Under the pieces are notes generated by a model. It was not told the DNA's origin. It did not search any database and saw only the letters and a list, made by a program, of their open reading frames with translations. Of a stretch of 53,747 nucleotides of DNA, positions 21,139 through 36,190 are shown piece by piece; within the stretch, counting starts at the first letter, position 1, and the number at the start of each line of letters is the position of its first letter. The position numbers were made by a program, and so were the translations under genes. Source of the DNA: Azonexus sp. (lineage in GTDB: Bacteria; Pseudomonadota; Gammaproteobacteria; Burkholderiales; Rhodocyclaceae); assembly GCF_023150235.1 (NCBI RefSeq), contig NZ_JAKLLH010000022.1, forward strand, positions 1 through 53,747, in the 5' to 3' direction.

Positions 21139-21906
21139 ATGCCGCTGCCTCGTTTTGTCCGTTCCCGCCTCTTCCTCGCCGGGCTGCTGGCGAGCGCGAT
21201 GCTGCTCTCCGCAGCTGTGTGGGCTTTCCTGCACCTGTATGCCGCAAGACCCGACGAGCGTTCCGCCCGCGCGGAGTTGCCCGTCACCGCTGCGGTTCAT
21301 GTCGAGCCTGATTCATCGGCGCCAGCAGGTCCGCCCTGGCGCTACGGCCGGGCGGATGCGCGTTTCACGGTGGTCGAGTACGCCGACCTCGAATGCCCGT
21401 TCTGCCGCGCGTATTTTGTCGTACTCAAACGCTGGATCGACCAACATCCCGAGGTCGCCTGGCAATGGCATCACCTGCCGCTGTCGATGCATGAGCCCGC
21501 AGCGTCCGCAGAGGCGCGCCTGGTCGAGTGCGTCGGCCAGACCGGCGGTCACACCGCGTTCTGGCAGGCCGTGGAGTGGGTCTATGCCCATACGCGCGGC
21601 GACGGGCAGGGCTTGCCCGAGGGCCTGCGCTATCCCGACCTCACGCCCGACGCGCAGCAATGCCTCAACTCCGAGCGGCCGGATGCGGTGATCCGCGCGC
21701 AGGCGGCCAAAGCTGCCCGGCAGCACATCGCCGCCACGCCCACGCTGCGCCTGCAAGACCGCCAGTCCGGCAAGACGCTGCTGCTACGCGGGCCTGTCGA
21801 CGGTGACGCCTTGCTGTCGGCCATCGATTTGCTGGCCGCAGGGGGCACCGATGCCCCGTCAACAAAGGAAATGCCTGCCGAGCCCATCGGCGACATGCCC
21901 AGGTAG
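21139..21906 (+). CDS. DsbA/DsbG-like thiol oxidoreductase of the ICE
   Basis: 255 residues with an N-terminal membrane segment or uncleaved signal (about 10-33) and a thioredoxin-fold domain with the redox motif CPFC (86-89). Proteins of this type in conjugative clusters oxidise or isomerise disulfides in pore components, of which several here are Cys-containing periplasmic proteins. The start is chosen for AAGGAGGG about 5 nt upstream. A C-terminal tail rich in Ala and Pro is unassigned. Confidence 0.85.
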   Translation: MPLPRFVRSRLFLAGLLASAMLLSAAVWAFLHLYAARPDERSARAELPVTAAVHVEPDSSAPAGPPWRYGRADARFTVVEYADLECPFCRAYFVVLKRWIDQHPEVAWQWHHLPLSMHEPAASAEARLVECVGQTGGHTAFWQAVEWVYAHTRGDGQGLPEGLRYPDLTPDAQQCLNSERPDAVIRAQAAKAARQHIAATPTLRLQDRQSGKTLLLRGPVDGDALLSAIDLLAAGGTDAPSTKEMPAEPIGDMPR

Positions 21907-21977
21907 CCACGATCTTCAAGGCTACGACGCGGCCTGGCCGCGCTGATCGACCCCGTTCGCTTCGCATCCCTCGACGC

Positions 21978-22074
21978 GAACAGCCACTGCGCGAGCGGTG
22001 GTGGATGCCGCTGTTCCCTTATTCACATTCCCATCGTCCCTGGAGGGTTCGCCCTTCCGGGGCGGGCGTCCTCC
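21978..22074 (+). promoter_or_regulatory. structured leader upstream of radC-like gene, candidate cis-regulatory RNA
   Basis: Two hairpins lie in the 192-bp gap before the RadC-like gene. Hairpin 1 (21978-22016) has outer arms GAACAGC/GCTGTTC and an inner CCACTG/CGGTGG stem. Hairpin 2 (22042-22074) has GGAGG/CCTCC outer arms and CGCCC/GGGCG inner arms with a TTCC turn. The ribosome-binding site (GGAGG, 22088-22092) lies just after and repeats the anti-SD-like arm composition. A published radC RNA motif occurs upstream of radC-like genes in mobile elements; whether this is that motif was not tested. Confidence 0.5.
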
Positions 22075-22098
22075 CACTTCATCCTTTGGAGGTTCGCC

Positions 22099-22593
22099 AT
22101 GTCTTATACAGTTACCGACTCCCACCCGGAGTCACTGGCCCTGATCGCCACCCAGCACGAGGATTGGATCATCCAGCAGGCCATCCTCTTGCTGGAGCAC
22201 CGCATCTTCAAGGCCGGGCCTTGCCTCTCCTGTCCCGCCGCCGTGCGCGACTACCTGCGTCTGAAGCTCGTCGCCGAGCCCAACGAAGTCTTCGCCGTCA
22301 TCTTCCTGGACAGCCAGCACCGCGCGCTGGCCTACGAGCAGCTGTTCAAGGGCTCGATTGACCAGACCTCGGTGTACCCGCGGGTGGTCGTCCAGCGCGC
22401 CTTGGCCCTCAACGCCTCGGCATTGATCCTGGCGCACCAGCATCCATCGGGGATGACCGAGCCCTCGGCCGCCGATCGCGCGCTCACGGAACGGCTCAAA
22501 ACCGCCCTGGCCATGGTCGATGTCCGGGTGGTGGATCACTTCATCGTCGGTGAGGGCGCGCCGTACTCCTTTGCCGAAGCCGGTCTGCTGTAG
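22099..22593 (+). CDS. radC: RadC-like JAB/MPN domain protein
   Basis: 164 residues with the JAMM metalloprotease-like motif HQHPSG (H113, H115) and Asp126 in SAADRAL. RadC-like proteins are widespread on ICEs and plasmids; despite the name, a DNA repair role is not established. It sits inside the tra block, behind a structured leader and ahead of a terminator-like hairpin (22637-22658), so it may form its own transcription unit. Confidence 0.9.
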
Positions 22594-22636
22594 CCGCAGT
22601 CTGCATCCGGCCTCTCCACGCAGCGTCATTCAACCC

Positions 22637-22658
22637 TGCGGGAGCCTCGGCTCCCGCA
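22637..22658 (+). terminator. terminator-like hairpin after radC
   Basis: Perfect arms TGCGGGAGCC / GGCTCCCGCA around TC, followed by TTCCTTTC, about 44 nt after the radC stop. The U-tract is imperfect, so termination may be partial. Confidence 0.6.
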
Positions 22659-22769
22659 TTCCTTTCGTGGTTGCCCCAAAGCGGAATGGTTGCGGTGCGC
22701 TTTCTTTGTCGCGAACGGAGCGGCGTTGGCGTTCGATTGGGGCTTCGATCGATTTCCAGGACGCCCGCC

Positions 22770-23219
22770 ATGATGGCTCCCCATTCCTTCATCTCTCAGC
22801 GCTTGCGAGCCATCGGCACGGCCCTCGCGTCGTGGGTCGTTGTGTCGTCCGCACTCAGTACGGCGGCGACGGCGGCCGAGGTGCTCGTGATCACCGACAG
22901 CGGCCACCCCGTGCGGGTAGCGGCCGGTACGCGCGTCGTCGAACTGGACCTGCCGGCGCGCATCGAGGCCGAGTTGGCTGCAGGCATGCCGGCCGATCCC
23001 GCCCGCGCCTCCGCCATCGTGCAGCAACGCCTGCGCGAGGGTGGGCCGGACTTGCAGCGCCGCATCGGGCGCGCCTACCAGGACGTCGCGGAGGCCTGGG
23101 GCCTGGGCATCGCCAAGGTGCCCGCCGTGGTCGTCGACCGGCGCTACGTAGTTTATGGCGAGCCGGATGTTGCCCGCGCCGCGGCACGCATCGAAACCTA
23201 TCGGAGGACCCAGCCATGA
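22770..23219 (+). CDS. exported ICE protein, TIGR03757-like
   Basis: 149 residues with a signal peptide (ending near TAATAA) and a small thioredoxin-like domain (VLVITDSGHPV, then AKVPAVVVDRRYVVYG). No CxxC is present, so it is not a redox enzyme. TraW/TrbC-like proteins of F-type systems have a comparable role in pilus assembly. The stop overlaps the next gene by 4 bp. Confidence 0.82.
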   Translation: MMAPHSFISQRLRAIGTALASWVVVSSALSTAATAAEVLVITDSGHPVRVAAGTRVVELDLPARIEAELAAGMPADPARASAIVQQRLREGGPDLQRRIGRAYQDVAEAWGLGIAKVPAVVVDRRYVVYGEPDVARAAARIETYRRTQP

Positions 23220-24166
23220 TCCGCCTGCCGTCGACACCTTCGCGCCGCATGCGCGTGGCGGGCGCCTCGCTGCTGTTGGCCGGCGCAGCTTCGTCTTTCG
23301 CCCTGGACACGGCCACCATCGTGGCCTCAGCACTGTCGCCGGATTGCCTGGAGTACCGCGTCGTCGGCATCTGCTACTGGCTGTTCTGCACGCCGTTCGG
23401 CTGCTCGGTGCGCACCTCGGTGAAGGTGCGGCATTACGTGCCCGACGCAGTGGTGTCGAGCTACTCGAACACCGGCGAAAACCCGTGGATCGAAGTGCGT
23501 CCGATGAGTGTGCCCAACCCCACGGCCCGGGCCGGCGGCGATGGCACCACCAACCACGACAACGAGAACAACCTCGGCAAGTTCAAGAACGCGGACGTGA
23601 TCGGGCATCCCGCCGGCGCGGTGTTCAGCCAGTTCGCCAGCGCATCCGGCTACACCTGCCAGGGTGCGGGCACGGCCTTCATGCCGTACCTGTTGAGCAC
23701 GCTCGATACGCTGGCCTGGCGCTACAACATCCCCGAGATGGTGTACCCGGAAGCATTGATCCCCGGCATGCGCGAGATCGGCGGTCGCACGACGCTGAAC
23801 CTGTGGGGCAACGTCTATGCGCGCGGCGGCTTCCTGCACCAGACCGACGACTACAAGAGCGGCGCCGTGGTCGCTCAGCGCGCGGGCGACATCGTGACCC
23901 GCCGCGCCCAGCCGCACGTCTATCAACCGCTGCTGGCAACAGCGCGCGACGGCTACTGGCCCGCCGGCGCGCTTGTGGAGACCGACGCCTCGACCGGCAA
24001 GTGGCAGGAGCTGACGCCGACGCTCTCGACCTCCTGCGCGGTCTTCCCGCACAGCAATACGCGGGTACAGGCCCAACAGGGTGACTACGCCTGGGCGCTG
24101 TGGCGGCCCTATGCCTGCTGCCGGCGGCGCGGACAGGTGTTTCTCGGCAGCGTCGATTTCATGTGA
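23216..24166 (+). CDS. TraU-like ICE protein, TIGR03756-like
   Basis: 316 residues, exported, Cys-rich (for example GICYWLFCTPFGC). Its plan is that of TraU-type periplasmic proteins required for DNA transfer and pilus assembly in F-like systems. The many cysteines are plausible clients of the DsbG-like protein encoded at 21139. It overlaps the previous gene by 4 bp and is followed 9 nt later by the next. Confidence 0.82.
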   Translation: MIRLPSTPSRRMRVAGASLLLAGAASSFALDTATIVASALSPDCLEYRVVGICYWLFCTPFGCSVRTSVKVRHYVPDAVVSSYSNTGENPWIEVRPMSVPNPTARAGGDGTTNHDNENNLGKFKNADVIGHPAGAVFSQFASASGYTCQGAGTAFMPYLLSTLDTLAWRYNIPEMVYPEALIPGMREIGGRTTLNLWGNVYARGGFLHQTDDYKSGAVVAQRAGDIVTRRAQPHVYQPLLATARDGYWPAGALVETDASTGKWQELTPTLSTSCAVFPHSNTRVQAQQGDYAWALWRPYACCRRRGQVFLGSVDFM

Positions 24167-24175
24167 GGTGATCCG

Positions 24176-25579
24176 ATGAAGGCGTCCATTTCCCGTTTCA
24201 TTCAACGCACCAAACCCTATAGGCTGGCCGTCGCATTCGCCTGCGCCTTCACGGTAGCGGTAGGCGTCGCATGGGCGCAGACCCGCATCGACCCGAGCGG
24301 CGCGAACGTGAACGGAAGCGTCATCGGCGACGATGTGCTCTACAGCATCGGCGGCGGTCGTGCCGTGTCCATGAGCGGCGCCGGGAACATGCAAAGCATC
24401 GGCGTCGGGATCGGCTGGAACAGCAACCTGATCTGCGGAAACATGAGCATCACGACCACGCTGCAGAACCAGCTCAACGGCATCACCAACGGGTTCCAGT
24501 CGATCATGAGCACCGTGATCCAGAACGCCACCAGTGCCGTGGCATCGCTACCGGCGTTGATCATCCAGCGCGCCGATCCCGGCCTCTACAACCTGCTCAC
24601 CAACGGCGTCCTGCAGGCCCGTCTGGATTTCGACCGCTCGAAGATGACCTGCCGGGCCATCGCCAACCGGATGGCCGACATGGCCGGCGGTCAGGCCGGC
24701 TGGGACCAGCTCGCCGAGGGCATGGCACTGCGGGATGCGGTCAGCGGCAACGATGCCGTGTCGGCCATCGAGCAGGCCGAGTCGAACAGGGGCAACAACG
24801 GCGTGCCTTGGGTCGGCGGCAGCAACGCGGGCGGTTCGGGGCAGGGTTCGATCAAGGTGGTGGGCGACGTGACCCGCGCGGGCTACAACCTGCTCAACGG
24901 CCGCAGCGTCACGGACACCTCGTCGATTCCGCGCGCTTCCTGCGGCAACCGGCTGACCTGCCAGACCTGGAGCTCGCCAGATGCCGCCGCCGCCTTTGCA
25001 ACCCGCGTGCTGGGCGAGCGCGAGCAGCGCACCTGCGAGAGCTGCACGAAGACGCAGACCACGCCCGGCGTGGGGCTGACGCCGGTGATCCAGGAGGAGT
25101 ACGAGACCAAGCTGCAGGCGCTGCAGGATCTGGTGACTCGTGCGAAGCCAACGACGGTGACAAACCTGGAGGCGGCTAGTAGCAATTCGCTGCCGATCAC
25201 CCGTGGTGTGATCGAGGCCCTGCGGGACGAGCCCGACCAGGATCTGCTGGGCAAGCGCCTGGCCTCGGAGGCTGCACTCTCCAGCGTGCTGGAAAAGGCC
25301 TTGCTGTTGCAGCGCACGCTGTTGACCGGCAAGAAGGAGCCTAACGTCGCCGCCAATGAGCTGGCCGTGAAGGCGGTCGATCAGGAGAACGGCACGCTGG
25401 AGCAGGAGATCAACAACCTCAAGACCGAGCTCGAACTGCGGCGCGCTCTGGCCGGAAATTCCGCGATGGCGATCATTCAACGGCACAGCACCAGGGCTGG
25501 CGGATCGCGCGGCATCTTCGAGGGTGACACGACCCGTGACCGGCTCAAGGAAGTGCAGAAGCCGCGGGGCACGCCATGA
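24176..25579 (+). CDS. ICE protein TIGR03755-like (TraH-like position)
   Basis: 467 residues with a long signal peptide (about 1-38, ending GVAWA), a Gly/Asn-rich N-terminal domain and a C-terminal coiled coil (about 380-430). By order (after TraU-like, before TraG) it corresponds to the TraH-like outer-membrane-associated family. The four-cysteine cluster CGNRLTC...CESC is notable. It overlaps the next gene by 4 bp. Confidence 0.8.
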   Translation: MKASISRFIQRTKPYRLAVAFACAFTVAVGVAWAQTRIDPSGANVNGSVIGDDVLYSIGGGRAVSMSGAGNMQSIGVGIGWNSNLICGNMSITTTLQNQLNGITNGFQSIMSTVIQNATSAVASLPALIIQRADPGLYNLLTNGVLQARLDFDRSKMTCRAIANRMADMAGGQAGWDQLAEGMALRDAVSGNDAVSAIEQAESNRGNNGVPWVGGSNAGGSGQGSIKVVGDVTRAGYNLLNGRSVTDTSSIPRASCGNRLTCQTWSSPDAAAAFATRVLGEREQRTCESCTKTQTTPGVGLTPVIQEEYETKLQALQDLVTRAKPTTVTNLEAASSNSLPITRGVIEALRDEPDQDLLGKRLASEAALSSVLEKALLLQRTLLTGKKEPNVAANELAVKAVDQENGTLEQEINNLKTELELRRALAGNSAMAIIQRHSTRAGGSRGIFEGDTTRDRLKEVQKPRGTP

Positions 25580-25929
25580 GCATCAAGAGTTGGCTGCGGC
25601 CGGCGTGGCTGTTCAACCGCCGCGTCGGCATGGCGTTGCTGTGGGCGCTGCTGGTCGCTTGCATTGCCGTGGCCGTGAATATCGTCGGTATCGGCATCGT
25701 CGGCAGTATCGATGACTGGGAGCGCTGGCTGCGCGCGCATTCGGCGCACTTCCTGGTCTGGCGGCTGCTTGTCTACACGGTGACGGCCTATGGCTGGTGG
25801 TGGATGCGCGGGCCCCTGCGCGAGCGCGAGCCCGAGTCGGAGGCGCACCAGCGCCTGCTGCGCGTCGAGATCGCGGCCGTGGTCACCATCGTGCTGCTCG
25901 AAGCCAGCCAACTACTGCGCGCAAGCTGA
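25576..25929 (+). CDS. small two-helix membrane protein of the ICE
   Basis: 117 residues with membrane segments at about 18-42 and 58-75 and another near the C-terminus. Genes of this size stand between the TIGR03755 and traG genes in many ICEclc-like elements. Function unknown. It overlaps the upstream gene by 4 bp and is 15 nt from traG. Confidence 0.72.
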   Translation: MSIKSWLRPAWLFNRRVGMALLWALLVACIAVAVNIVGIGIVGSIDDWERWLRAHSAHFLVWRLLVYTVTAYGWWWMRGPLREREPESEAHQRLLRVEIAAVVTIVLLEASQLLRAS

Positions 25930-25944
25930 GGCGGGGAGAATGAA

Positions 25945-27462
25945 ATGACGCTCTACACCACGGACTACCTCGAGTATTACCTGACCCTGGTGGGCTGGGT
26001 GATCAACAACGGCATCTGGAACATCCTGGTGGCCAGCGGCGTGTTCGCGCTGCCGTTCGTTGCCATCGTGATCCATGAGTGGCTGCGGGCGCGGGCCGAA
26101 GGTGCGGACGAGGGCAACAAGGGCGTGCTGTCCTCGATGCGCATCGAGAACCGGGTATGGGTGGCAATCTTGGTCATCATGTTCGCCGGCATTCCCTTCA
26201 TTCCCGTCGACCTCAGCACGATCAGGTTCGACACAACCCGTTCGGTGCAGTGCCAGGTCAACGTGCCGCAGCCGGCGGACACGGGCTGGTCCAACGCCTA
26301 CACCACGCTCAACAACCAGAGCGCGCTGGTGCCGGTGTGGTGGTTCTTCATGCACGCCATCTCGAAGGCCATCACAGGCGCTGCGGTCGCGGCAATTCCC
26401 TGCGGGACCGATCTGCGTCAGATGCGCATGGACGTCGATGCCACGCGCATCAGCGATCCGGTGTTGGCTCAGGAAGTCGCCGACTTTGTCCACGACTGCT
26501 ACGGGCCGTCGCGCGCCAAGCTGTTCATGAACCGGCCGACGCTCTCCGACGATCAGATGAACGACGTGACCTGGATCGGTTCGAGCTACTTCCAGAGCAC
26601 GTCCGGCTTCTACGACACCTACCATTCGAGCACGCCACGCACGGCCTGGCCTTACGACGCAACACGAGACGCGGGCCTGGCCCAAGTGGACAGCGGCGGG
26701 GGCTATCCGACCTGCCGGCAATGGTGGTCGGATGGCGGCAGCGGGCTGCGCGCGCGCCTGCTGGCCCAGGTCGATCCGGATCTGCTTTCCCGTATCGGTC
26801 ATTGGGCAGGGTTCCTGTCGCAGAACGAGGTGAATGACTCGGTGATCCGCGCGGTCGTGTCGCCGAGCCAGCAGAAGATGAACCAGGGCGCCGTCTATAC
26901 CGACTATGGCGGTCAGATCGAGAAGACGCTTCCCAACATCGTGACCCGCGGTGCCGGCGACCTTGGGATGACCGTCGGCTCGCTGGGCTTCTTCCCGGCG
27001 ATGGATGTGGTTCGCCAGGCGTTGCCCATGGTGCTGTCGTTGCTCAAGATGGCACTGGTCATCTGCATCCCGCTGGTGCTGCTCTTCGGTACCTACGAGC
27101 TGAAAGCCCTGGTCGCGGTGAGCTGCGTGGAGTTCGCGCTGTTCTTCGTGGATTTCTGGTTCCAGCTCGCGCGCTGGCTGGACAGCACGATCCTCGATGC
27201 TCTCTACGGCTGGGGTTTCGGTGCGAATCGGCCGCACACCAACTTCGACCCGTTGATCGGCCTGAACAACGCCTTCGGCGACATGCTGTTGAATTTCGTG
27301 ATGGCGACGATGTTCATCGTGCTGCCGGGCTTTTGGGTGACCGCACTGGCCTGGGCTGGAGTTCGCGCCGGGAATGTGCTTCAGGGACTGTCGGAAGGTA
27401 CGAAATCGGCAGGTCAGGCCGGCTCAAAGGGAACAGGCATGGTGATCCGCAGTGCCAAATAG
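25945..27462 (+). CDS. traG: conjugal transfer protein TraG (N-terminal type)
   Basis: 505 residues. Several membrane segments lie in the N-terminal 100 residues and again around 355-460, with a periplasmic region between. This is the TraG_N plan, needed for pilus assembly and mating-pair stabilisation. It lacks the long C-terminal mating-stabilisation domain of F TraG, as is usual in MPF-G elements. It ends one base before the convergent DUF3742 gene. Confidence 0.85.
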   Translation: MTLYTTDYLEYYLTLVGWVINNGIWNILVASGVFALPFVAIVIHEWLRARAEGADEGNKGVLSSMRIENRVWVAILVIMFAGIPFIPVDLSTIRFDTTRSVQCQVNVPQPADTGWSNAYTTLNNQSALVPVWWFFMHAISKAITGAAVAAIPCGTDLRQMRMDVDATRISDPVLAQEVADFVHDCYGPSRAKLFMNRPTLSDDQMNDVTWIGSSYFQSTSGFYDTYHSSTPRTAWPYDATRDAGLAQVDSGGGYPTCRQWWSDGGSGLRARLLAQVDPDLLSRIGHWAGFLSQNEVNDSVIRAVVSPSQQKMNQGAVYTDYGGQIEKTLPNIVTRGAGDLGMTVGSLGFFPAMDVVRQALPMVLSLLKMALVICIPLVLLFGTYELKALVAVSCVEFALFFVDFWFQLARWLDSTILDALYGWGFGANRPHTNFDPLIGLNNAFGDMLLNFVMATMFIVLPGFWVTALAWAGVRAGNVLQGLSEGTKSAGQAGSKGTGMVIRSAK

Positions 27463-27463: not shown

Positions 27464-27835
27464 CTACCTCTCGTCATCGAACCGAGGGTCGGGATCGTCG
27501 TTGTAGTTGATCGGATCGTAGAAGACACTGCGCTTGTGATCTGCTTGGTCGCCGATCTCCCCTTCCTCGTATTCGTCGTATGCGGAGCCCCGAGCCGCCC
27601 AAGCCGCAACCACTGAAAACGCGACCAGCAGTGCCAGCCAGAACGCGGCATAAAGCAACAGACCGAATGCAACGAGCTTGGCCGCCAGCAGCGTCGCCTT
27701 GGCTGCGCCCGGCGCCCATCCCCGCGCAAGCAGCCAGCCCTGTGCTCGCCGATCAAGATGCGCGCAGCGTCGCCACGCTCGGCCCAGCATCCGGCCGAGA
27801 CGTTCTGCGAAGGTGGTCTGTGCGGCGGTCTTCAT
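27464..27835 (-). CDS. DUF3742 family membrane protein
   Basis: 123 residues with an N-terminal basic domain (FAERLGRMLGRAWRR), a hydrophobic segment (about 48-76) and an acidic C-terminal tail. DUF3742 proteins are typically encoded in the opposite direction after traG in ICEclc-like elements, as here. The start at 27835 (MKTAAQTTFAER) is favoured by similarity of the N-terminus to the family; the frame is open to 27916. Role unknown. Confidence 0.85.
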   Translation of the reverse strand: MKTAAQTTFAERLGRMLGRAWRRCAHLDRRAQGWLLARGWAPGAAKATLLAAKLVAFGLLLYAAFWLALLVAFSVVAAWAARGSAYDEYEEGEIGDQADHKRSVFYDPINYNDDPDPRFDDER

Positions 27836-28185
27836 TTCGGCTACCTCATGGTCGTCCTGTGCTTCTTTTGATACCCGTTCGTTATTCGCTTGATTGAATC
27901 CTGCATGAGTTTTCAACCCATGAGCGAAATTCTGTGCAACGTCAAATCACGTCTGCGGCGGAAGCCGGCAAACAAGATCGTTCTGGCCTTGGCGTCGTGG
28001 CGAAAAAACAGGTGGATCGCGTGGCACGACTTCCAGGATCAGACGGCTCAGCGGGCGGAACAGCCCGGGGTTGGCGTTGGCCTCAGCATGCAGCCATGGT
28101 AAGGAATGCTGCCTGCCATGTCCATGTTTTTCACCATTATAGGCACTTTCAGCATCTGGTGAAAGCACCAATCTCAGTGAAATCC
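27836..28185. other. gene-free stretch between DUF3742 and the first AbiEi-like gene
   Basis: Short open frames cross this stretch on both strands but have no ribosome-binding sites or recognisable domains, so I do not call a gene. Its right end holds a CTTTCAGCAT copy (28147-28156) that is the exact reverse complement of ATGCTGAAAG at the AbiEi start (28222-28231), about 66 bp apart. This is the normal accessory hotspot between traG and traI. Confidence 0.5.
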
Positions 28186-28231
28186 TTGCGGAAATTTCAC
28201 GAAATGTGGTATTTTCAGCGGATGCTGAAAG
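28171..28231 (+). promoter_or_regulatory. promoter and nested dyads of the first AbiEi-like gene
   Basis: TTGCGG (28186-28191), an 18-bp spacer and TATTTT (28210-28215), extended by TGTG just upstream. The ATG at 28222 follows the -10 box by 6 nt, so the predicted mRNA starts at or next to its start codon. Two dyads overlap the promoter: GTGAAAT/ATTTCAC around the -35 and TTTCAGC/GCTGAAA around the start. They are candidate AbiEi operators. Confidence 0.6.
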
Positions 28232-29304
28232 ACCATCATCCAATGAAAGAAGCAGAAGCCCGTGCCGGCGAAGCGTTGCGGCGGCTGCTTGAGAACGTCC
28301 CGATCCTTCACATCGAAGGCATCGAGCCTGAAGCCGTATCCGGCGATTGGGAGCCAGACTTGATCGCCCGATTGCTCGTGGACGGGCGGCAGCACATGCT
28401 CATCTGCGAGTACAAGTCGAATGGTCAGCCGCGGTACGCCCGTTCTGCACTGCTGGAACTGCGGAACTACGTGGCGCAGCGAGCCCCGCAGGCAACGCCC
28501 ATCTTCATCGCGCCTTACCTCTCACCCGCAGTGAGGCAGTTGTGCGTAGAGAAGGACGTCGGCTATCTCGACCTTGAGGGAAACGCCCGAATCGCCTTCG
28601 GCGGCGTGTTCATCGAGCGTATGGTGGCGGACAAGCCCGCGGCCGAACAACGCGAACTCAAGTCGCTGTTCAGGCCGAAGTCGGCCCAGGTTCTACGCGC
28701 CATGCTGCGCGAGCCCGACCGTGCATGGCGCGTCACCGAGTTGTCGGCAATCTCCGGGGTCAGCCTGGGGCACGTCAGCAATGTGCGCACCGGCTTGATC
28801 GATCGGGAATGGGCGCGAGCGTCGGACGATGGCCTCGTCCTCTCAGAGCCGGACGCACTGCTCGACGCATGGCGAGACAGCTACACCGCACCGCCAGGTG
28901 AGCGGCTGCGGTTCTACACCCCGTTGCATGGCAGCGCGTTCGAAGATGCGGCCCGCGGCGCACTGCGCGCCGAAAGCGGCCCCGGACGCGCCGTCTTCGC
29001 CTCCTTCTCGGCAGCGCAGTGGCTCGCTCCTTACGGGCGCACCGGCACGCACTACTTCTTTGCCGATGAGGCAGGTCTTCAGAAGCTCCAGGCCGCGCTG
29101 AAGCTCGCGCCCGCCTCGAAAGGCGAGAACGTGGCCATCACCGTGTCGAAGGACTTGGGACTGCTCGCCGACACTATTGAACCTGCGCCGGGCGCGGTCT
29201 GCACGAGCCCGATCCAGACCTACCTTGATCTGTCCATTGCCGGCGAACGCGGCGCCGAGGCCGCCGAGCACTTACGCCAAGAAAGGCTCTCATGGCCCAA
29301 ATGA
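28222..29304 (+). CDS. AbiEi-family antitoxin/regulator with PD-(D/E)XK-like N-terminus
   Basis: 360 residues. The N-terminal domain has the fold signature of restriction-like nucleases: Asp46 in EPDLIAR and E63-Y-K65 in CEYKSNGQ. A winged helix follows (about 150-205, WRVTELSAISGVSLGHVSNV) and then a C-terminal domain of about 150 residues. This matches the AbiEi_2-type regulators that partner with AbiEii nucleotidyltransferases. It overlaps the nucleotidyltransferase gene by 13 bp. Whether the nuclease-like domain is active is not known. An in-frame ATG at 28243 is an alternative start. Confidence 0.78.
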   Translation: MLKDHHPMKEAEARAGEALRRLLENVPILHIEGIEPEAVSGDWEPDLIARLLVDGRQHMLICEYKSNGQPRYARSALLELRNYVAQRAPQATPIFIAPYLSPAVRQLCVEKDVGYLDLEGNARIAFGGVFIERMVADKPAAEQRELKSLFRPKSAQVLRAMLREPDRAWRVTELSAISGVSLGHVSNVRTGLIDREWARASDDGLVLSEPDALLDAWRDSYTAPPGERLRFYTPLHGSAFEDAARGALRAESGPGRAVFASFSAAQWLAPYGRTGTHYFFADEAGLQKLQAALKLAPASKGENVAITVSKDLGLLADTIEPAPGAVCTSPIQTYLDLSIAGERGAEAAEHLRQERLSWPK

Positions 29305-30161
29305 CACCCCAGGAACCACAATCGGCCGCCGAGTACGACGACCGGACGACTGCGGCAGTGAAATCGGTGCTGATCGAGATCGGCCAAATCCTTGGTAGCT
29401 TCAAGGGCAAGTTCGCCATCATCGGCGGCGCGGTTCCTTGGCTTCTGCTGGCCAACGAGGACATGCCGCATGTCGGCACGCTCGACGTGGACGTCGGCCT
29501 GGACGCGGAAGCGCTCGGCGACGGCGAATACGCGACATTGATCAGCGCGCTTCAAGGCCATGGCTATGCCCAGCGCGAGGGACTTCGGCGCTTCCAACTG
29601 GTTCGCCAGGTTCCCGCGCGCGATGATGGAGAAGCGATCGACGTCGTGGTTGATTTCCTGATGCCGCGCGACGCGGAGATCGTCAAGAACGATCCCCCTC
29701 TAATCAGCGATTTTGCCGTGCAGCGGGCCGATGGCGCCGACTTGGCGATGCGGTTCTACCAACTGGTCGCCGTGGCGGGGCCGATGCCGGACGGTGGAAC
29801 CAACCGCGTGGAGATTGCGGTGTGTTCAATCCCCGCTCTGCTGGCGATGAAAGGCCACGCACTGGCGGGCCGCTACAAACAAAAGGACGCCTACGACATC
29901 TACTACTGCGTGCGGAATTACCCTGGCGGCATCGATGTGCTGGCACAGGAATGTCGCCCCCTGCTGGGGCATCCCAGCGGTGAGCGCGGTTTCCGGCACA
30001 TCGCCGACAAGTTCGACACCTTCGAGGGTCATGGGCCTACCTGCGTGAGGCGCTTCGTCGAAGACACGCATGCGCTGGGCGATCGCACCCCCGAACAGTG
30101 GCAGCAGGACGCCTTCGGGCAGATCGACGCGCTGCTGCGCGCCATGGCGCTGCGAGGTTGA
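29292..30161 (+). CDS. AbiEii-like nucleotidyltransferase (probable toxin)
   Basis: 289 residues. Nucleotidyltransferase motifs are GGAVPW (45-50) and TLDVDVGLD with Asp65 and Asp67; a later KQKDAYDIYY segment matches AbiEii/DUF1814-type proteins. In studied type IV systems such as AbiE of Lactococcus and MenT of Mycobacterium, the enzyme modifies tRNA or other targets and blocks growth. Overlap with the regulator gene implies coupling. It is followed 11 nt later by the nuclease gene. Confidence 0.82.
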   Translation: MAQMTPQEPQSAAEYDDRTTAAVKSVLIEIGQILGSFKGKFAIIGGAVPWLLLANEDMPHVGTLDVDVGLDAEALGDGEYATLISALQGHGYAQREGLRRFQLVRQVPARDDGEAIDVVVDFLMPRDAEIVKNDPPLISDFAVQRADGADLAMRFYQLVAVAGPMPDGGTNRVEIAVCSIPALLAMKGHALAGRYKQKDAYDIYYCVRNYPGGIDVLAQECRPLLGHPSGERGFRHIADKFDTFEGHGPTCVRRFVEDTHALGDRTPEQWQQDAFGQIDALLRAMALRG

Positions 30162-30172
30162 GTCGCGCAACC

Positions 30173-31540
30173 ATGGACTACGTGCAACTTCGCAATTTGC
30201 TGGAGCCTCTGGTCACCGGGCTGAAGGATGCTGGCACCCACACCATGCTGCCGACGCTTTGCGAGGAACTGGGCCTGCCTGCGCCTGGCGCCGATGGTTC
30301 CAAGCGCGAGCGCATGACCGCCAGCTTCAATGCGGTAGCGGACACGGACCTGCCGATAGTTGCACGCAAGCTGCTGGTGCGCCACCCGCCCAACGCCACC
30401 ACGCGCAACCAGATTCAGGACATCCTCTGGAGCGACAGCCCATGTCCGCCCATCCCGAAGCGGTACCGGCGCGAGGTCGCGCGCAGGCTCAATCGCGAGG
30501 AGCTGTACGGGGATGCCCGCAGGTTCGACGAGCTGTTGGAGCGCCTGTGGATCTTGGATGCGGATGACTGGATGCACCTGCTGGGCGGGAAGCCGACGGG
30601 ATTGCGCGCTGAAATCCAGCAGCATGTCCATCGCAATCCGGAGGACTGGCCAGCCGAAACGCTGTTCGACCAGTTGGGAGCGTATGACGCCTCCGACCGG
30701 CGCTTCGCGCTGTTCCTGGAGGGACTGGCTTCGGCCGACGTGCGCCCCGACGAGGCCGCCCAACGCCACTTCGTCGCCTGCGTCAACGAGCCGCTGCGGA
30801 GTTGCGGCGTCGAGCTGCGCGAGACCGACTCGGAAGGCGGCTACCCGATCTTCACGCTGGTCCCGCAGCACGCGGCGACCAAGGGCCGGCCGAAGAATCT
30901 CATTTTCGCCTCGCCCGACAAGCCCGACCTGCGCTTTCGCGACGCGCTGGACAACGACGTCGAGATCGTCACCAATGCGGACAAGGTGCTTGTCTATGAT
31001 CGGCCCATCGGCAACGACGGGCTGCGCTGGAACGATCTGCAGCAGTGGTGGGGAGAAGCCGAGCAGATCGCCGATGCGACGCTGGCCAAGCGCTCGCTAT
31101 ACGCGCGTCTCAAGGCCAGCCTGCCACGCAACTCCCCGCCGCAAACCTTGCTGTTCGATGCCTTCTTCGAGGGATTTCGCAGTGCCGTGCCCAACCTGCC
31201 AGCGCTGCTGCCCGAAGTCTGGCTGCATTGGGACCCACGGACGGTCAAGGAGCGAGGGCCGGATGCGCTTCTGCGGTTTCGCATGGACTTTCTGCTCCTG
31301 CTGCCCCAGGGCGTTCGAGTCGTCATCGAGGTCGACGGCAAGCATCACTACGCGGACTCCACGGGCAGCGCCGACGTGCAGCGCTATTCGCAGATGGTCA
31401 AGGCCGACCGCGAACTCAAACTCGCCGGTTATGAAGTCTTTCGGTTCGGGGCAGCGGAGCTGCAGGTGCCCACGGCGAAGGCTGACGTAAAGACCTTCTT
31501 CGAGGCCCTGTTCAAACGCTACGGCGTACCGACGACCTGA
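30173..31540 (+). CDS. probable defence protein with C-terminal PD-(D/E)XK (DUF559-like) nuclease
   Basis: 455 residues. The N-terminal half is mostly helical and I recognise it only loosely as the AbiJ N-terminal type 3 domain. The C-terminal domain has Asp372 in RMDFLLL, then E386-V-D388-G-K390 in VVIEVDGKHHY, followed by a YSQMVKADRELKLAGYEVFRFG stretch (in parts), which is the DUF559/VSR-like nuclease pattern. The gene ends just before the traI leader and lies 11 nt after the nucleotidyltransferase, so it probably shares its transcript. Confidence 0.7.
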   Translation: MDYVQLRNLLEPLVTGLKDAGTHTMLPTLCEELGLPAPGADGSKRERMTASFNAVADTDLPIVARKLLVRHPPNATTRNQIQDILWSDSPCPPIPKRYRREVARRLNREELYGDARRFDELLERLWILDADDWMHLLGGKPTGLRAEIQQHVHRNPEDWPAETLFDQLGAYDASDRRFALFLEGLASADVRPDEAAQRHFVACVNEPLRSCGVELRETDSEGGYPIFTLVPQHAATKGRPKNLIFASPDKPDLRFRDALDNDVEIVTNADKVLVYDRPIGNDGLRWNDLQQWWGEAEQIADATLAKRSLYARLKASLPRNSPPQTLLFDAFFEGFRSAVPNLPALLPEVWLHWDPRTVKERGPDALLRFRMDFLLLLPQGVRVVIEVDGKHHYADSTGSADVQRYSQMVKADRELKLAGYEVFRFGAAELQVPTAKADVKTFFEALFKRYGVPTT

Positions 31541-31568
31541 CAACCCAGGCCCGTGCTGGCCCTCGATG

Positions 31569-31800
31569 CGGGCCTGGGCCAGGACTGACGACAATTCTGC
31601 AGCGCTCCGGGTTTGCCGGGGTTGCCCCATGCCGCATTGATCGTGGCGCTCCAACCCTGGCGGCCTTATACCCAAGGCTTCCATAAAAGCCAAAGGGCTG
31701 GGAAGGGGGCCAAGGGGAAAGGCCCTACCCGAAAAGGCAAAAAGGCTCCCCCGAGCAGCCCGACATCCGGGGTTTCCCATGCTCTCGCTGTTCAAACGCA
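31569..31800. repeat. traI leader, copy A (imperfect direct repeat with 34276-34523)
   Basis: Shared blocks include CTGGGCCAGG, GCCGCATTGATCGTGGCGCT and CAAGGGGAAAGGCCCTA, ending in the first codons of traI (MLSLF-x-RKR). The two copies diverge by substitutions and small indels, by eye about 20 percent, so they come from two related elements rather than a recent duplication. The repeat starts just after the nuclease gene in this copy. Confidence 0.82.
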
Positions 31801-32194
31801 AACGGGTGCCGCCCACTGCCAGCGCGTCGCCGACGCCCACATCTCCCGCCGAGCCCGGCAAAGGGCTGGTGCGACCGGAGCCGGCCGCATCGCTACTGGC
31901 GACGCCACGTCGGCAGAAGCTGCTGGAACACATCTGGCAGCGCACCTCGCTGTCGCGCCGACAGTTCGGCACGCTCTACCTCGCGCCGCTGGAGCGCTAC
32001 GCCGAGCTGGTCCAGCAGTTCCCTGCTTCGGAAAGCCACCACCATGCCTACCCGGGCGGCATGCTGGACCACGGCCTGGAGATCGTTGCCTACGCGCTCA
32101 AGCTGCGGCAATCGCACTTGCTGCCCGCTGGCGCCACGCCGGAGGCGCAGGCCGCCCAGGCAGAGGCCTGGACCGCCGGCACGGCCTACGCATC
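31779..32194 (+). pseudogene. traI: truncated relaxase traI (5' end, PFGI-1 type)
   Basis: The first 138 codons of a TraI_2-type relaxase, including the HHHAYPGGMLDHGLE segment (87-101) that begins the HD-type domain, ending at WTAGTAYA. Family members continue with LLHDIGK and several hundred more residues. Here the frame runs on into antisense of an unrelated gene. The break point is near 32190-32195. Loss of the relaxase means the element cannot start transfer without help in trans. Confidence 0.85.
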
Positions 32195-32428
32195 GGTTTC
32201 CGTGGAGACCTTCAAGTTCTTGGCGATATCCCGCAACAGCATGAAGTTCAGCTTGTCGCCAGCACTCAGGTGGATGGTCTTGCCCGTCATGGCGCCGAGC
32301 CCGATGTCTACCAGTTGCCGCAAGGCATCCGAGCGCGAACTCGCCCTGCCCGTCTGCTCCATCCAGTCGTCAATGCGCTGCAGCAGATCTTCATCTATGC
32401 GCAGTTCCAGTCGTTCAGTGCGTACCAT
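32186..32428 (-). pseudogene. 3'-truncated ribbon-helix-helix/YfbU-like gene
   Basis: 80 codons. The N-terminus (MVRTERLELRIDEDLLQRIDDW, shown in part) is a ribbon-helix-helix DNA-binding domain. It is followed by HLSAGDKLNFMLLRDIAKNL, which resembles the start of a YfbU domain. It stops at 32186, right at the traI break point, with about 130 residues of the expected YfbU domain missing. Its promoter is intact, so a short repressor-like product may still be made. Confidence 0.65.
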
Positions 32429-32458
32429 GCAAACCCCCAGAAACCCGGCAATACACCG

Positions 32459-32488
32459 TAATTACGTACAAATGTACGCACACATCAA
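32459..32488 (-). promoter_or_regulatory. promoter with internal palindrome for the RHH gene
   Basis: Minus strand TTGATG (32483-32488), an 18-bp spacer and TAATTA (32459-32464). The spacer contains the palindrome CGTAC-ATTT-GTACG (32465-32478), a fitting operator for autorepression by a ribbon-helix-helix dimer. Confidence 0.6.
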
Positions 32489-32574
32489 CCTAATATCAAT
32501 GATCTTGGGCTAACTTTCGCTGGCTGATTAAATTTGGTCTTCAAAATATCCTATAAGGCTAGTTTGCGCGATGC

Positions 32575-32624
32575 GATCCTGTAGATAAAGGATCTTTGAT
32601 TAGATTTTGTGGTATTTTTCAACC
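32575..32624 (+). promoter_or_regulatory. extended -10 promoter and dyad of the second AbiEi gene
   Basis: GTGGTATTTT (TATTTT at 32613-32618) precedes the ATG at 32625 by 6 nt, the same arrangement as at the first AbiEi-like gene. A GATCC-N10-GGATC dyad (32575-32594) lies upstream. No good -35 is present. A leaderless mRNA is predicted. Confidence 0.55.
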
Positions 32625-33383
32625 ATGGATGCAAATTCCCGTCATCAAGTAATCAAGCGCCTGCAAACGGGGCTACTCCGTGGGGCGCCGTTCGACCTGA
32701 CCACCCTGGCACCGCTTGGGGTGTCGGCTCAACTCGCCGCGCGCTACGCCGAAGGCGGCTGGCTCGTGCGCCTGGCCCACGGTGTCTATGCCTTCCCGAA
32801 CGACGACTTCGGGGTATATGGCGCGTTGAAATTCCTGCAACATCGCGTGCCAGGCCTGCACATCGGCGGCAAGAGCGCGCTGGCGCTGCAGGGCGTGCGG
32901 CATAACCTGGGTAGCCGTGACACTCTGGTGTTGTGGGGCGATGCTCGTTTCGCGCTACCGACTTGGTTCACCTCCCGTTTTCCGGCACGCTATGCTCACG
33001 CCAGCCTGTTCGACTGGCCGGATGACGCGCTTGCCAGTAAATCCGTGACCACACCTCCAGGCTTGCCCGATGGGCTACGCGTATCAACCTCCGAACGTGC
33101 CGTGCTGGAAATGCTGTACGAAGTCGGCACCAAGCAAAGCCTGGAGGAAGCGCGCAACCTTTTCGACGGCGTGCGCTCGCCGCGCAAGGACTTACTCGGC
33201 CAACTACTGGCCCACTGCACGAGCGTGAAGGCTGTGCGGCTGTTTCTCACTTGGGCGCGCGAGACCGGGCTAGTGGACGCGGACGATCTGCTGGCGCGCT
33301 ACCCGCTGCGCACGGGCAGCAACAAGCGCTGGATGAGCCGGCTTCCCGACGGAACCTTGTTGAGTCTGAACCCGCATGGATAA
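32625..33383 (+). CDS. abiEi: type IV toxin-antitoxin AbiEi-family antitoxin
   Basis: 252 residues. The N-terminal winged helix is short (about 1-70, with VSAQLAARYAEGGWLVRLAHGVYAFP in parts) and the C-terminal antitoxin domain follows, with the SERAVLEMLYEVG stretch seen in AbiEi proteins. In the S. agalactiae prototype AbiEi represses its own operon and neutralises AbiEii without direct binding. It overlaps the toxin gene by 8 bp. A TTG start at 32607 would add six residues but lies inside the proposed promoter. Confidence 0.88.
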   Translation: MDANSRHQVIKRLQTGLLRGAPFDLTTLAPLGVSAQLAARYAEGGWLVRLAHGVYAFPNDDFGVYGALKFLQHRVPGLHIGGKSALALQGVRHNLGSRDTLVLWGDARFALPTWFTSRFPARYAHASLFDWPDDALASKSVTTPPGLPDGLRVSTSERAVLEMLYEVGTKQSLEEARNLFDGVRSPRKDLLGQLLAHCTSVKAVRLFLTWARETGLVDADDLLARYPLRTGSNKRWMSRLPDGTLLSLNPHG

Positions 33384-34296
33384 AAGCTACGCAGATACCG
33401 TTCGCCTGTTGCTGACCGTCGCGCCGGACGTCTTCGCGAATGACATCTTCGCGATGAAGGGCGGCACGGCGATCAACCTGTTCGTGCAGGACATGCCACG
33501 CCTGTCGGTCGACATCGACGTGGTGTATCGACCATGGCAAACGCAGCGTGAAGAGGCGCTGGCCGGAATCAATGGTGAGCTGGCCGCCATCTCTCAGCGT
33601 GTCGCGCGGCTGGGCATCCAGACACGTCTGGTGCGCAGCAAGGATCTCGGCGACACCAAGCTGATCGTCGAGAACGACACCAGCCAGGTCAAGATCGAAG
33701 TGAACGTCGTCTTCCGCGGCACGGTGCTCCCGGTTGAACGCCAGCCCTTGAGCGCCAGGACCGGCGACCTGTTCGGTGTCGAGTTCGAGGCGCCGATTCT
33801 GGCACGCGATGAGCTGTATGCCGGCAAATTGGTGGCAGCCCTGGATCGACAGCACCCGCGCGACTTGTTCGACGTGTGGCAGCTCTACGAATCGGGCGGA
33901 CTCAGCGACGGCATGGTCGAGTGCTTCGTGCTCTACCTCGCCGGCCATAATCGGCCGCCGCATGAAGTGCTGTTCGGCAACGACAAGAACATCGCAGCGG
34001 AGTACGAGCGCGCTTTCGTCGGCATGACGGAAGTGGAGTGCTCGCTGGACACGCTGCTCGCCGCCCGTGCACAGATACGACAGGAACTGCCGCGACGCCT
34101 GACCACAAGTCACCAACAGTTCCTGCGCGGGCTAGTACGCGCCGAGCCCGACTGGTCGCTGATGCAATGCGCGCACGCAGCCGAACTGCCCGCCTTGCGG
34201 TGGAAGCTTGCCAACCTTGAGGCGTTCCGCAAACGGCGCCCGGCTGATTTCGAAGCCCAAGCCAACGCTCTCGATTCGGGACTGGGCCAGGCCTGA
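33376..34296 (+). CDS. abiEii: AbiEii/AbiGii-family nucleotidyltransferase toxin
   Basis: 306 residues. The motif KGGTAINL (28-35) and the metal-binding RLSVDIDVVY (Asp46, Asp48) match AbiEii closely. A later ARDELYAGKLVAALDRQHPRDLFDV segment (in parts) holds the family Lys and Asp. It causes bacteriostasis and abortive phage infection in studied systems. Its last codons lie inside the repeat that leads into traI copy B, so the cassette was inserted exactly at the hotspot. Confidence 0.9.
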   Translation: MDKSYADTVRLLLTVAPDVFANDIFAMKGGTAINLFVQDMPRLSVDIDVVYRPWQTQREEALAGINGELAAISQRVARLGIQTRLVRSKDLGDTKLIVENDTSQVKIEVNVVFRGTVLPVERQPLSARTGDLFGVEFEAPILARDELYAGKLVAALDRQHPRDLFDVWQLYESGGLSDGMVECFVLYLAGHNRPPHEVLFGNDKNIAAEYERAFVGMTEVECSLDTLLAARAQIRQELPRRLTTSHQQFLRGLVRAEPDWSLMQCAHAAELPALRWKLANLEAFRKRRPADFEAQANALDSGLGQA

Positions 34297-34523
34297 CGTC
34301 GATCCTGCAGCGCCGGCTTGCCGGGATTGCCCCGTGCCGCATTGATCGTGGCGCTCAATCACTGACACCCCTATACCCAAAGGCTTCCTAAAAGCCAAAA
34401 GGTTGGGGAAGGGACAAAGGAAGGGCGCCAAGGGGAAAGGCCCTATCCTGAAAAGGCCAAAAGCCTCCCCCGACCGGCCCGTCATCCGAATTCCGCCATG
34501 CTTTCGCTGTTCCACCGCAAACG
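34276..34523. repeat. traI leader, copy B (imperfect direct repeat with 31569-31800)
   Basis: The same blocks as in copy A occur in the same order (CTGGGCCAGG, GCCGCATTGATCGTGGCGCT, CAAGGGGAAAGGCCCTA) and lead to ATGCTTTCGCTGTTCCACCGC. A short GGCTT/AAGCC hairpin is visible in the middle. The copy starts inside the last codons of abiEii. Confidence 0.82.
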
Positions 34524-34545
34524 CCGGCGCCTCAAATTCGCCGAT
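34498..34545 (+). pseudogene. second traI 5' remnant
   Basis: ATG at 34498 begins MLSLFHRKRRR, the same opening as traI copy A, but the likeness ends after about 15 codons. The frame then runs antisense through the end of the integrase gene. This is a stub left by deletion of a second traI against the integrase 3' end. Confidence 0.75.
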
Positions 34546-34569
34546 CTTCTCAATTCGGTGTATCAACTT

Positions 34570-35877
34570 TCAATCGCCGGCCTGTATCAATTTACTTCCG
34601 CTGGTGACAACGGTCAGCGGCATGCTCGCCACCTCGAGCATATTCTGTTCGAACAGATCAAGGCGGTCCGCCCAGTCCTGCATCATGCGCCGTCGCTGTT
34701 CCACGTACTCGGCGTGGTTGTAGGTCGCGCTGACCTTGTTGGGATCGACGTGGGATAGTTGCGCGTCGATCCATACCTTGGGATAGCCGATCTCGTTGAG
34801 TGCGGTGGACATGGTGGCGCGCATGCCATGCCCGGTCAGCAGATCGCGATAGCCCATGCGTTTGAGCGCGTTGTTGAGCGTGTTCTCGCTGATGCGCTTC
34901 TTCATTTCACTGTCGTGGCGCAGTAGGTAGCGCTGAGCCGGTTTGAACTCTTCCAGCAAGTACCGGACGATCTCCATCGCCTGCACCGACAGCGGCACGA
35001 TGTAAGGTGGGATGTCCCGGGGCAATTGCCGCTTCTTGCGCATGTCCAGTTGAAGTTGCTTCACGACCTCGGGAGGAATCACCCACACCCCCTGATCAAG
35101 ATCGAACTGATCCGGTGTCGCCTGGCGCAATTCACCCGTGCGAACTCCCGTCAGCAGCAACAACCTCAGGCCGAGTTGTGTCTGCAGGCGACCACGGTAC
35201 TTGCGCAGGCGCTGCATGAGTTTGGCCAGATCACCCATGCGCAGGAACGGGTTGTGATTGACGGGCGGCAAGGGCAGAGCCACCACATCGAGATCGGAGG
35301 CCGGGTTCTGCTCCAGGCCAGGGACCACTACGAGGGCGTAACGGAACAACTGGTTGAACCAGGTGCGGACCTTTTCCGCCACCGACAGCGCCTTGCGCCG
35401 CTCGATTCGGGCAATCACTTCCAGCAAATCGGGCCGCTTGATCTCATAGATCGTACGTTTGCCCAAGAAGGGCAATACGTCCTTGGCAAAGACCCGGGGA
35501 AGTATCGATAGGGTGGTCTGGCGCCCCTTCTTGAGGCTGAGTTCGCGATGAGCCAACCACTTTCGGTAAATCACCTCGAAGGTGTTCTCGCCGGCAAGCT
35601 TGACCACAGCCCGTTTCTGCTTGCGATGCGTATGGGGGTTGACGCCCTTGGCGAGCAGGGCCCGGGCTTCATCGCGCAAACCCCGCGCCTCGCGAAGGGA
35701 AACCTCCGGATAGGTCCCCAGGGACATGCGCTTCTGCCGATCAAGCCAGTAGTAGCGGAAATGCCAGGCTCGGCCACCGCTGGCGCTGACCGCCAACGAG
35801 AGCCCATCGATATCGGGAAGTGTGTAGGCCTTGCCGGTAGCCTTGGCTTGCCGGATAGCCAGATCTGAGAGTGCCAT
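34570..35877 (-). CDS. int: P4-family tyrosine recombinase integrase
   Basis: 435 residues. The N-terminal arm-binding DUF4102-like domain (LSDLAIRQAKATGKAYTLPD) is followed by a SAM-like core-binding domain and a catalytic domain with the tyrosine-recombinase residues: Arg in LTGVRTGEL, His-x-x-Arg in HGMRA, His in LSH and Tyr in TYNHAEY. It is complete. Such integrases put ICEclc-like elements into tRNA-Gly genes. The start at 35877 has CAGGAG 7 nt upstream. Direct repeats in its promoter region (35967-35990) may be arm sites. Confidence 0.93.
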   Translation of the reverse strand: MALSDLAIRQAKATGKAYTLPDIDGLSLAVSASGGRAWHFRYYWLDRQKRMSLGTYPEVSLREARGLRDEARALLAKGVNPHTHRKQKRAVVKLAGENTFEVIYRKWLAHRELSLKKGRQTTLSILPRVFAKDVLPFLGKRTIYEIKRPDLLEVIARIERRKALSVAEKVRTWFNQLFRYALVVVPGLEQNPASDLDVVALPLPPVNHNPFLRMGDLAKLMQRLRKYRGRLQTQLGLRLLLLTGVRTGELRQATPDQFDLDQGVWVIPPEVVKQLQLDMRKKRQLPRDIPPYIVPLSVQAMEIVRYLLEEFKPAQRYLLRHDSEMKKRISENTLNNALKRMGYRDLLTGHGMRATMSTALNEIGYPKVWIDAQLSHVDPNKVSATYNHAEYVEQRRRMMQDWADRLDLFEQNMLEVASMPLTVVTSGSKLIQAGD

Positions 35878-35966
35878 GCGCCAGCTCCTGAACATGGGTC
35901 AGGAGCCAGATGTTCGTTTCGCAGGCCGCAGCCATCCAGCAACAATCCGCTATCAGCCGCATCCGC

Positions 35967-36116: not shown

Positions 36117-36190
36117 TGGAGCGGGCGATGGGAATCGAACCCACGGCTCTAGCTTGGGAAGCTAGGGTATTACCATTATACGACGCCCGC
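36117..36190 (-). tRNA. tRNA-Gly (CCC), ICE attachment site
   Basis: A complete cloverleaf on the minus strand: acceptor GCGGGCG/CGCCCGC, anticodon stem CTAGC/GCTAG with loop TTCCCAA (anticodon CCC), T-loop TTCGATT and encoded CCA. Its 3' end faces the integrase, so the element kept the tRNA intact on integration. tRNA-Gly genes are the known targets of ICEclc-type integrases. Confidence 0.95.

Follow-up and report, generated by a model that had tools for sequence, protein, structure and literature searches.

Why should a decayed genomic island hold two different AbiE-type operons side by side, each leading into a copy of the same DNA segment and the start of a traI gene? The question is raised by a contig of 53,747 nucleotides from Azonexus sp. 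(NZ_JAKLLH010000022.1; called the window below, at its full length), in which the original prediction had seen two elements, or halves of different elements, that recombined or stacked at one tRNA-Gly site and then decayed. Our analysis indicates that the island in the window is most probably the collapsed remnant of two ICEclc-like integrative and conjugative elements (ICEs), in all likelihood a tandem at tRNA-Gly(ccc), and that both operons belong to one toxin-antitoxin (TA) slot, where they likely serve element retention. The part worth following is the strict occupancy of this slot by genes of TA families, whose alleles appear to be exchanged between close relatives.

The repeated segment and its two parent elements

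Two copies of the region upstream of traI had been predicted and were recovered by alignment:

31559..31778, no strand: left copy of the segment conserved ahead of traI, a candidate origin of transfer (ungapped blocks, alignment, shared 21-mer)
34267..34497, no strand: right copy of the segment, starting within the end of AbiEii

Positions 31559-31800 and 34267-34523 are diverged copies: three ungapped blocks (47, 106 and 52 nt) are 85%, 80% and 79% identical, and the block spacing between the two copies is near-constant (2705-2718). The 21-mer TGCCGCATTGATCGTGGCGCT has exactly two occurrences (31630 and 34335) and appeared in 0 of 100 shuffles. On the right side the similarity begins in the final codons of AbiEii (34267), extends to about codon 9 of traI (34523) and is thus not confined to the traI start codons. 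The predicted segment end at 34523 is a real edge, but it is the point at which homology to the right-hand parent stops. We infer that the segment is the origin of transfer (oriT); neither copy has a special DNA fold (z -0.56 and 0.34).

The two halves of the region have different parents. Positions 29910-32191 are 96.5% identical to a locus (L009) in the metagenome-assembled genome (MAG) of Accumulibacter sp. SCELSE-3, the parent of the element named ICE-A here, and positions 32191-34523 are 96.3% identical to a locus (L010) in the MAG of Candidatus Accumulibacter sp. 66-26, the parent of ICE-B, which is also matched by positions 34610-36152 at 97.2%. Because the L009 contig begins inside the TA module, ICE-A left of 29910 is comparable only with more distant elements. 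Apart from the TA operons, the pieces are:

13132..27462, plus strand: conjugation genes (type IV secretion system, T4SS) of ICE-A from RAQPRD to TraG (Pfam; collinear with the element of genome G194 from 13132)
27464..27916, minus strand: DUF3742 gene of ICE-A, the left border of the slot
31779..32191, plus strand: traI of ICE-A, cut after ~138 codons (TraI_2 profile matched over positions 1-119 of 324)
32191..32192, no strand: Junction 1, ICE-A/ICE-B, with ~1 bp in common
32192..32443, minus strand: YfbU-type gene of ICE-B, of which ~84 codons at the 5' end remain
34498..34523, plus strand: traI of ICE-B, first ~9 codons only
34524..34609, no strand: Junction 2, a filler of 86 bp with the end of an IS21-family (ISAzo17-like) insertion sequence (IS)
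34570..35895, minus strand: integrase of ICE-B, lacking ~190 residues at the C-terminus (a Phage_integrase match to profile positions 3-170 of 172 remains)
36117..36152, no strand: att, the 3' end of tRNA-Gly(ccc), common to the ICE-B end in L010
36117..36190, minus strand: tRNA-Gly(ccc), the integration target

At Junction 1 traI of ICE-A, at about codon 138, meets the YfbU-type gene of ICE-B, a gene that lies beside the slot in only three of the searched loci (L010, L139 and L140) besides the piece in the window, and is a poor fit. At Junction 2, 77 bases of the filler (34533-34609) are 84% identical (E 5e-15) to DNA adjoining istA of an ISAzo17-like element in NC_006824, and almost the whole filler matches six places in a congener (G071) at 91-92%. 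This IS21-family end lies on six contigs of G071 (L209 among them), and in five cases the contig starts about 50 bases away.

Both traI genes are broken, codons ~1-138 and ~1-9 remaining, so that a complete TraI relaxase is missing, and no other TraI_2 was found in the genome. Nor is there a complete integrase with att at both ends: the integrase is cut C-terminally and one att (36117) is present. Conjugation genes of the RAQPRD-TraC-TraU-TraG type are present in conserved order according to Pfam. The original claim that only hotspot cargo had been kept was therefore too strict, since the island has also kept the T4SS run from RAQPRD to TraG, HipA and a small helix-turn-helix gene beside it, the greater part of the integrase, and one att. 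The HipA gene and its small (HipB-like) neighbour, at 11249-12894, are found at the left island edge beside RAQPRD; RAQPRD borders the position named GI-Hotspot 8 in PMC12629846.

Homologous recombination of two elements at the shared segment is very improbable as the source of the double arrangement. The copies are similar enough in places for such an exchange, but the switch from ICE-A to ICE-B sits at 32191, with traI on one side and the YfbU-type gene on the other, and the copies stay element-specific (96% identity to the own parent each, ~83% across). This route is largely refuted for Junction 1, provided that L009 and L010 represent the true parents at that point.

The two putative toxin-antitoxin operons

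Profile matches bore out that each segment copy is preceded by a different AbiE-type pair. The operons comprise the following features, and all five TA genes are open frames:

28146..28231, no strand: putative operator/promoter of the left module, an inverted repeat with two palindromes TTTCAGCN4GCTGAAA, 66 bp apart
28243..29304, plus strand: left gene 1 (ICE-A), AbiEi_2-like, with a possible restriction-endonuclease-like N-terminal region (profile, model)
29292..30161, plus strand: left gene 2 (ICE-A), AbiEii-like nucleotidyltransferase, overlapping gene 1 (profile, GG/DxD residues)
30173..31540, plus strand: left gene 3 (ICE-A), AbiJ_NTD3 protein with a sub-threshold C-terminal DUF559 match (profile)
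31541..31588, plus strand: what is left of an AbiEii stop end (...ALDAGLGQD stop), next to the left module (aligns with the end of the right AbiEii)
32607..33383, plus strand: AbiEi (AbiEi_3) of ICE-B, start probably at 32625 (profile, PADLOC)
33376..34296, plus strand: AbiEii nucleotidyltransferase of ICE-B, 8 bp overlap with AbiEi (profile, PADLOC)

The right side is the classical AbiEi/AbiEii pair that had been predicted. Both proteins score far above the Pfam cut-offs (AbiEi_3, 119 bits against 26; AbiEii, 135.4 bits against 22.5), and regulator and nucleotidyltransferase lie in one overlapping operon, the gene layout of an AbiE type IV TA system. The left pair resembles this system in the order of regulator and nucleotidyltransferase and, apparently, in its upstream palindromes, but differs in that both proteins stay just under the Pfam cut-offs (gene 1, AbiEi_2, 19.7 bits against 21; gene 2, AbiEii, 20.6 bits against 22.5), the regulator is extended by a long N-terminal region, and the pair is followed by a third gene, which matches AbiJ_NTD3 with 134.8 bits (cut-off 32.5). 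Homologues of the left pair pass the same cut-offs (25.9 against 21 in L142; 22.7 against 22.5 in L139). In a PADLOC run on the window genes only, the right pair was matched and the left module weakly so. NCBIfam gave no match for the five TA proteins, and the Protein Data Bank (PDB) held no sequence relatives, at E up to 1, of the two nucleotidyltransferases and the two AbiEi-type proteins. On these profiles the left module would be a divergent form of AbiE that carries one gene more.

The left module had been described as a 360-aa/289-aa pair plus a nuclease. The module is real, but its first gene probably starts at 28243 and encodes 353 aa; gene 3 probably starts at 30173 (455 aa), and both corrected starts are where relatives align. 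The protein model of gene 1 (pLDDT 87.6) had nucleases as its top PDB matches, all weak, and its homologue in L142 likewise shows a sub-threshold match to Mrr_cat. Because a Foldseek search with this model gave no PDB match at E <= 0.001, the evidence for a nuclease-like N-terminus is weak. The model of the AbiJ_NTD3 protein was poor (pLDDT 41.5) and was not used. In the left nucleotidyltransferase the GG and DxD residues, which we take to be catalytic, are invariant in all eight aligned sequences.

Upstream of gene 1 the DNA from 28120 to 28240 folds with a z of -5.6. Both sites of the double palindrome were found with at most two mismatches in 8 of 10 modules and with at most three in 9 of 10 (window included), at a spacing of 66-68 bp; the tenth module has one site only. 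Among 500 letter shuffles, at most one produced two such sites. The double palindrome also precedes left-type operons where no traI or TraG was found nearby.

Gene 3 is 93-99% identical in L009, L139 and L140 and was not found in the fetched stretches of L141-L149. The same three genes occupy the same interval in genomes G194 (L139, with traI open at about 667 aa) and G114 (L140, with traI cut by the contig end). Genes 1 and 2 also occur in other genomes without gene 3, traI or TraG in the fetched stretch, and gene 1 has matches in 29 of 399 genomes sampled from the order, the window's own counted. The AbiEii stop end next to the left module is present in both the window and L009, which suggests that the left module replaced a classical pair. 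Probably, then, ICE-A once carried a classical AbiE pair or acquired its last codons by exchange.

The DUF3742-traI interval in related elements

To what extent is this position given over to TA genes elsewhere? Genomes of species were scanned with the traI start, and the best 80 of at least 390 relatives by TraI similarity made up the locus sample, which holds many near copies (53 different among 67 TraG rows). The whole interval between DUF3742 and traI is present in 72 of the 80 loci, and these form the base of all counts. Eight loci without the left border were left out; six of them show TA genes, L049 extends 110 bp upstream only and L039 matches no query. The non-AbiE queries were taken from slots of the same loci, and Pfam families were named on representatives only.

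The slot holds TA genes in all 72 complete intervals. The catalogue thus upholds the view that growth-control modules repeatedly fill this position. Both AbiE genes are found in 46 intervals and the other 26 hold YhaV/PrlF, RES with a partner, PIN with Phd, or a FitA-like/PIN remnant. Recounted by content, 45 slots have AbiE only, 19 YhaV/PrlF only, three RES only, one PIN/Phd and one FitA-like/PIN; three are mixed, namely L015 (AbiE and YhaV/PrlF), L024 (RES and an AbiEii piece) and L064 (RES and a PrlF-like gene). With both AbiE genes in 46 of 72 intervals the right pair is the commonest slot occupant, and the idea that it is variable or occasional cargo had to be rejected.

Slots L041, L045 and L056 are partly broken. 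In L056 (7687-9797) AbiEii is in two parts with another open frame between them, and in L024 (6139-10001) it is reduced to a piece beside the RES pair. The partner of the RES toxin has no Pfam match naming an antitoxin; it is a putative antitoxin, and 'Xre-like' is the label given to it here. When the same queries were run outside the slot in the 72 loci (E <= 1e-6; no general TA scan was made there), only the Xre-like query gave matches, in 43 loci, 42 times inside the integrase gene and once (L058) near the edge of the stretch. In L010 the integrase (13551-15419) aligns in its C-terminal part, over 218 aa, with the putative antitoxin that accompanies a RES toxin (L021, 9029-9724), at 36% identity and 110 bits. 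The window integrase has lost most of the region resembling the RES partner.

Slot types were placed on a TraG tree, made by a quick method, with 67 rows: 65 of the 72 loci, the window and L139, seven loci being dropped with TraG missing or shorter than 380 aa. At least 10 changes of slot type are needed on this tree. The smallest well-supported set with ICE-A has eight rows, itself included, and four slot types, and one branch of 41 rows is all AbiE. This distribution indicates that one large lineage keeps AbiE and that the lineage of ICE-A and ICE-B swaps.

TraI matches on plasmids came from 1074 records, of which 30 were listed and ten read (H3-H11 and H18); H23, with 92% identity over 36% of the query, was left out. 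Six of the first seven listed plasmids (76.5-86% identity over 82% of the query) have a TA pair, one of them weakly: two AbiE, two RES with partner, one FitA-like/PIN and one with VapB and PIN matches that are both below threshold. The seventh, H5, shows no TA match. In three more distant plasmids (63-71%) no gene is annotated in the interval from DUF3742, or its counterpart, to traI. The result hints that the TA-slot rule is limited to the close family, and is only a hint because the plasmid gene table is incomplete: next to traI, one locus-tag number is left out in each of H5 and H18, so a small gene may be missed there.

The order TraG, DUF3742, slot, traI, integrase and tRNA-Gly in relatives of the window is that of ICEclc/PAGI-2-type elements (MobH relaxase, tRNA-Gly). 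The window differs in being a composite with both traI genes broken, its target being tRNA-Gly(ccc), and the 18-bp repeat of ICEclc as printed in PMC10732049 differs from the end seen here. ICEclc itself is reported to have an oppositely oriented unit, ORF52324-53196, beside traI and outside the transfer regulon (PMC9286271); its expression outside the transfer programme is what a TA operon might show, the comparison being one of position and expression only. A hotspot flanked by traD and RAQPRD has been published (PMC12629846). It too is a defined variable position, apparently in the same element family, but its flanks are traD and RAQPRD, whereas the TA genes of the slot described here stand between DUF3742 and traI. 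In the titles and abstract openings of the open-licence literature, no statement of a TA slot beside traI in the ICEclc-like family was found among the matches listed.

Origin of the composite and possible role of the slot

In L010 the integrase end carries the 36-bp 3' end of tRNA-Gly(ccc), and in the genome of L009 the integrase end of ICE-A lies at tRNA-Gly(ccc). The same 21-bp att was found in eight other loci of the 80. Because both parents reside at tRNA-Gly(ccc), a collapsed tandem is the best reading. Two traI starts occur in none of the 80 loci, in the available DNA, so that the two-copy arrangement is not a normal state among them. Tandem copies of ICEclc-type elements have been reported in Pseudomonas aeruginosa strain 35969 (PMC10732049). 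The original proposal of two elements at one tRNA-Gly site followed by decay thus stands in so far as each parent exists elsewhere, at 96-97% identity and at tRNA-Gly(ccc) or its 3' end; the stacking itself is deduced.

The size and order of the events are likewise a reconstruction. ICE-A would have given the conjugation genes, its TA operon and the first traI start; from ICE-B would come the other TA operon together with the integrase and the end with att. The join of traI of ICE-A (codon ~138) to the YfbU-type gene of ICE-B (32191) would go back to a single deletion that used no shared sequence. A second loss, leaving the IS21-family end, would have removed traI of ICE-B and the integrase tail. 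All that survives here of the body of ICE-B is the AbiE slot with the start of its neighbour and the integrase end, remains that fit, in this one case, a loss up to but not into an addiction operon. Such a composite is an ordinary fate of stacked elements.

Several observations weigh against a collapsed tandem whose two operons share one TA slot. Only one att was found in the window with up to three mismatches allowed. No empty site could be shown, the left flank (lon, hupB) and the right flank (ParA-like, IclR) lying on different contigs in relatives. Of 75 other genomes of the genus none spans Junction 1 (five partial matches) or Junction 2 (four partial matches), and viral contigs gave no exact match to Junction 1. 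The records of L009 and L010 are, by their titles, metagenome assemblies. The ratio of nonsynonymous to synonymous substitution rates (dN/dS) is 0.03-0.10 in the TA genes, and as it is equally low in dead pieces (0.11 in the traI piece, 0.06 in the integrase) there is no sign of selection on the TA genes since the decay. As to the slot, the left-pair proteins of the window score slightly below the Pfam cut-offs; in L139 and L140 the AbiEii end is missing and additional DNA separates the module from traI; L039 has traI and no match to a TA query, and also no TraG or DUF3742 in the 10 kb upstream; and plasmid H5 has neither TA matches nor TraG/DUF3742 nearby.

Could the contig simply join pieces of two elements from different strains or loci? 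Such an assembly artefact would agree with junctions that no other genome examined spans, and pieces matching two other assemblies at 96-97% could come from a strain mixture; the IS end at Junction 2 is multi-copy in the congener, and repeats cause misjoins. However, the parents share only about one base at Junction 1, which does not fall at the obvious repeat, the IS end is single-copy in this genome, and the genome is rated 99.96% complete and 0.16% contaminated. We consider an artefact distinctly improbable.

AbiEii-type proteins block growth, and AbiEi binds promoter repeats. Going by these families, the slot most likely keeps the element in its host: the growth-blocking nucleotidyltransferase would be held in check by an autoregulating AbiEi-type protein, and cells losing the element would be harmed. 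Both operons would then be TA systems holding the element in the host. A precedent exists in Streptococcus suis, where AbiE is reported to stabilise its ICE, ICESsuHN105 (PMC11062541). AbiE is carried on an ICE there as well, but that element belongs to another family, and in it two TA systems, AbiE and SezAT, act together, whereas here alternative TA operons occupy one slot.

A retention of the operons mainly as anti-phage defence, rather than for element stability, appears unlikely. AbiE has been described as abortive infection that works by a TA mechanism (PMC3985639), the right pair has a PADLOC match and the left module has an AbiJ-type third gene. The other slot occupants (YhaV/PrlF, RES pairs and PIN pairs), on the other hand, are TA families, whose phage links were not looked for. 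A main role of the AbiEi proteins in transfer, through binding close to oriT, is less likely still. The slot does lie between DUF3742 and traI in all 72 complete intervals, and AbiEi of ICESsuHN105 binds oriT (PMC11062541). Yet the left palindrome and the right promoter are absent from the traI-upstream segments, in which no copy of an AbiEi operator was found with up to four mismatches; the best alignments of operator and segment were equalled by 80 and 48 of 200 shuffles, and slot types without AbiEi hold the same place.

Beyond element retention, a wider idea may be put forward tentatively and with some doubt. ICEclc-like elements might carry an obligatory, exchangeable addiction berth beside traI, the alleles of which would act in competition between elements sharing tRNA-Gly(ccc). 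An element with a different allele could not simply displace the resident, so tandems would form; on collapse neither berth could be lost, and decayed islands would be trimmed to their TA operons. If true, a dedicated TA berth would help to explain the retention of a widespread proteobacterial ICE family in its hosts, would provide a simple typing marker for these elements, and would offer a natural set of swapped TA alleles on similar backbones for the study of addiction and of competition between elements. The window would then show a collapsed tandem in which the two berths outlasted the two relaxases.

Two observations concern the surroundings of the integration site. A tRNA-Val lies beside hupB in the five relatives looked at and was not found in the window (flanks 10204-10700 and 36260-37836); together with the flanks lying on different contigs in relatives, this suggests a rearrangement at the island. 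In L010 (15641-17528) the att of ICE-B lies about 1.8 kb from an intact tRNA-Gly, a distance that gives the impression of a further small element stacked in the gap.

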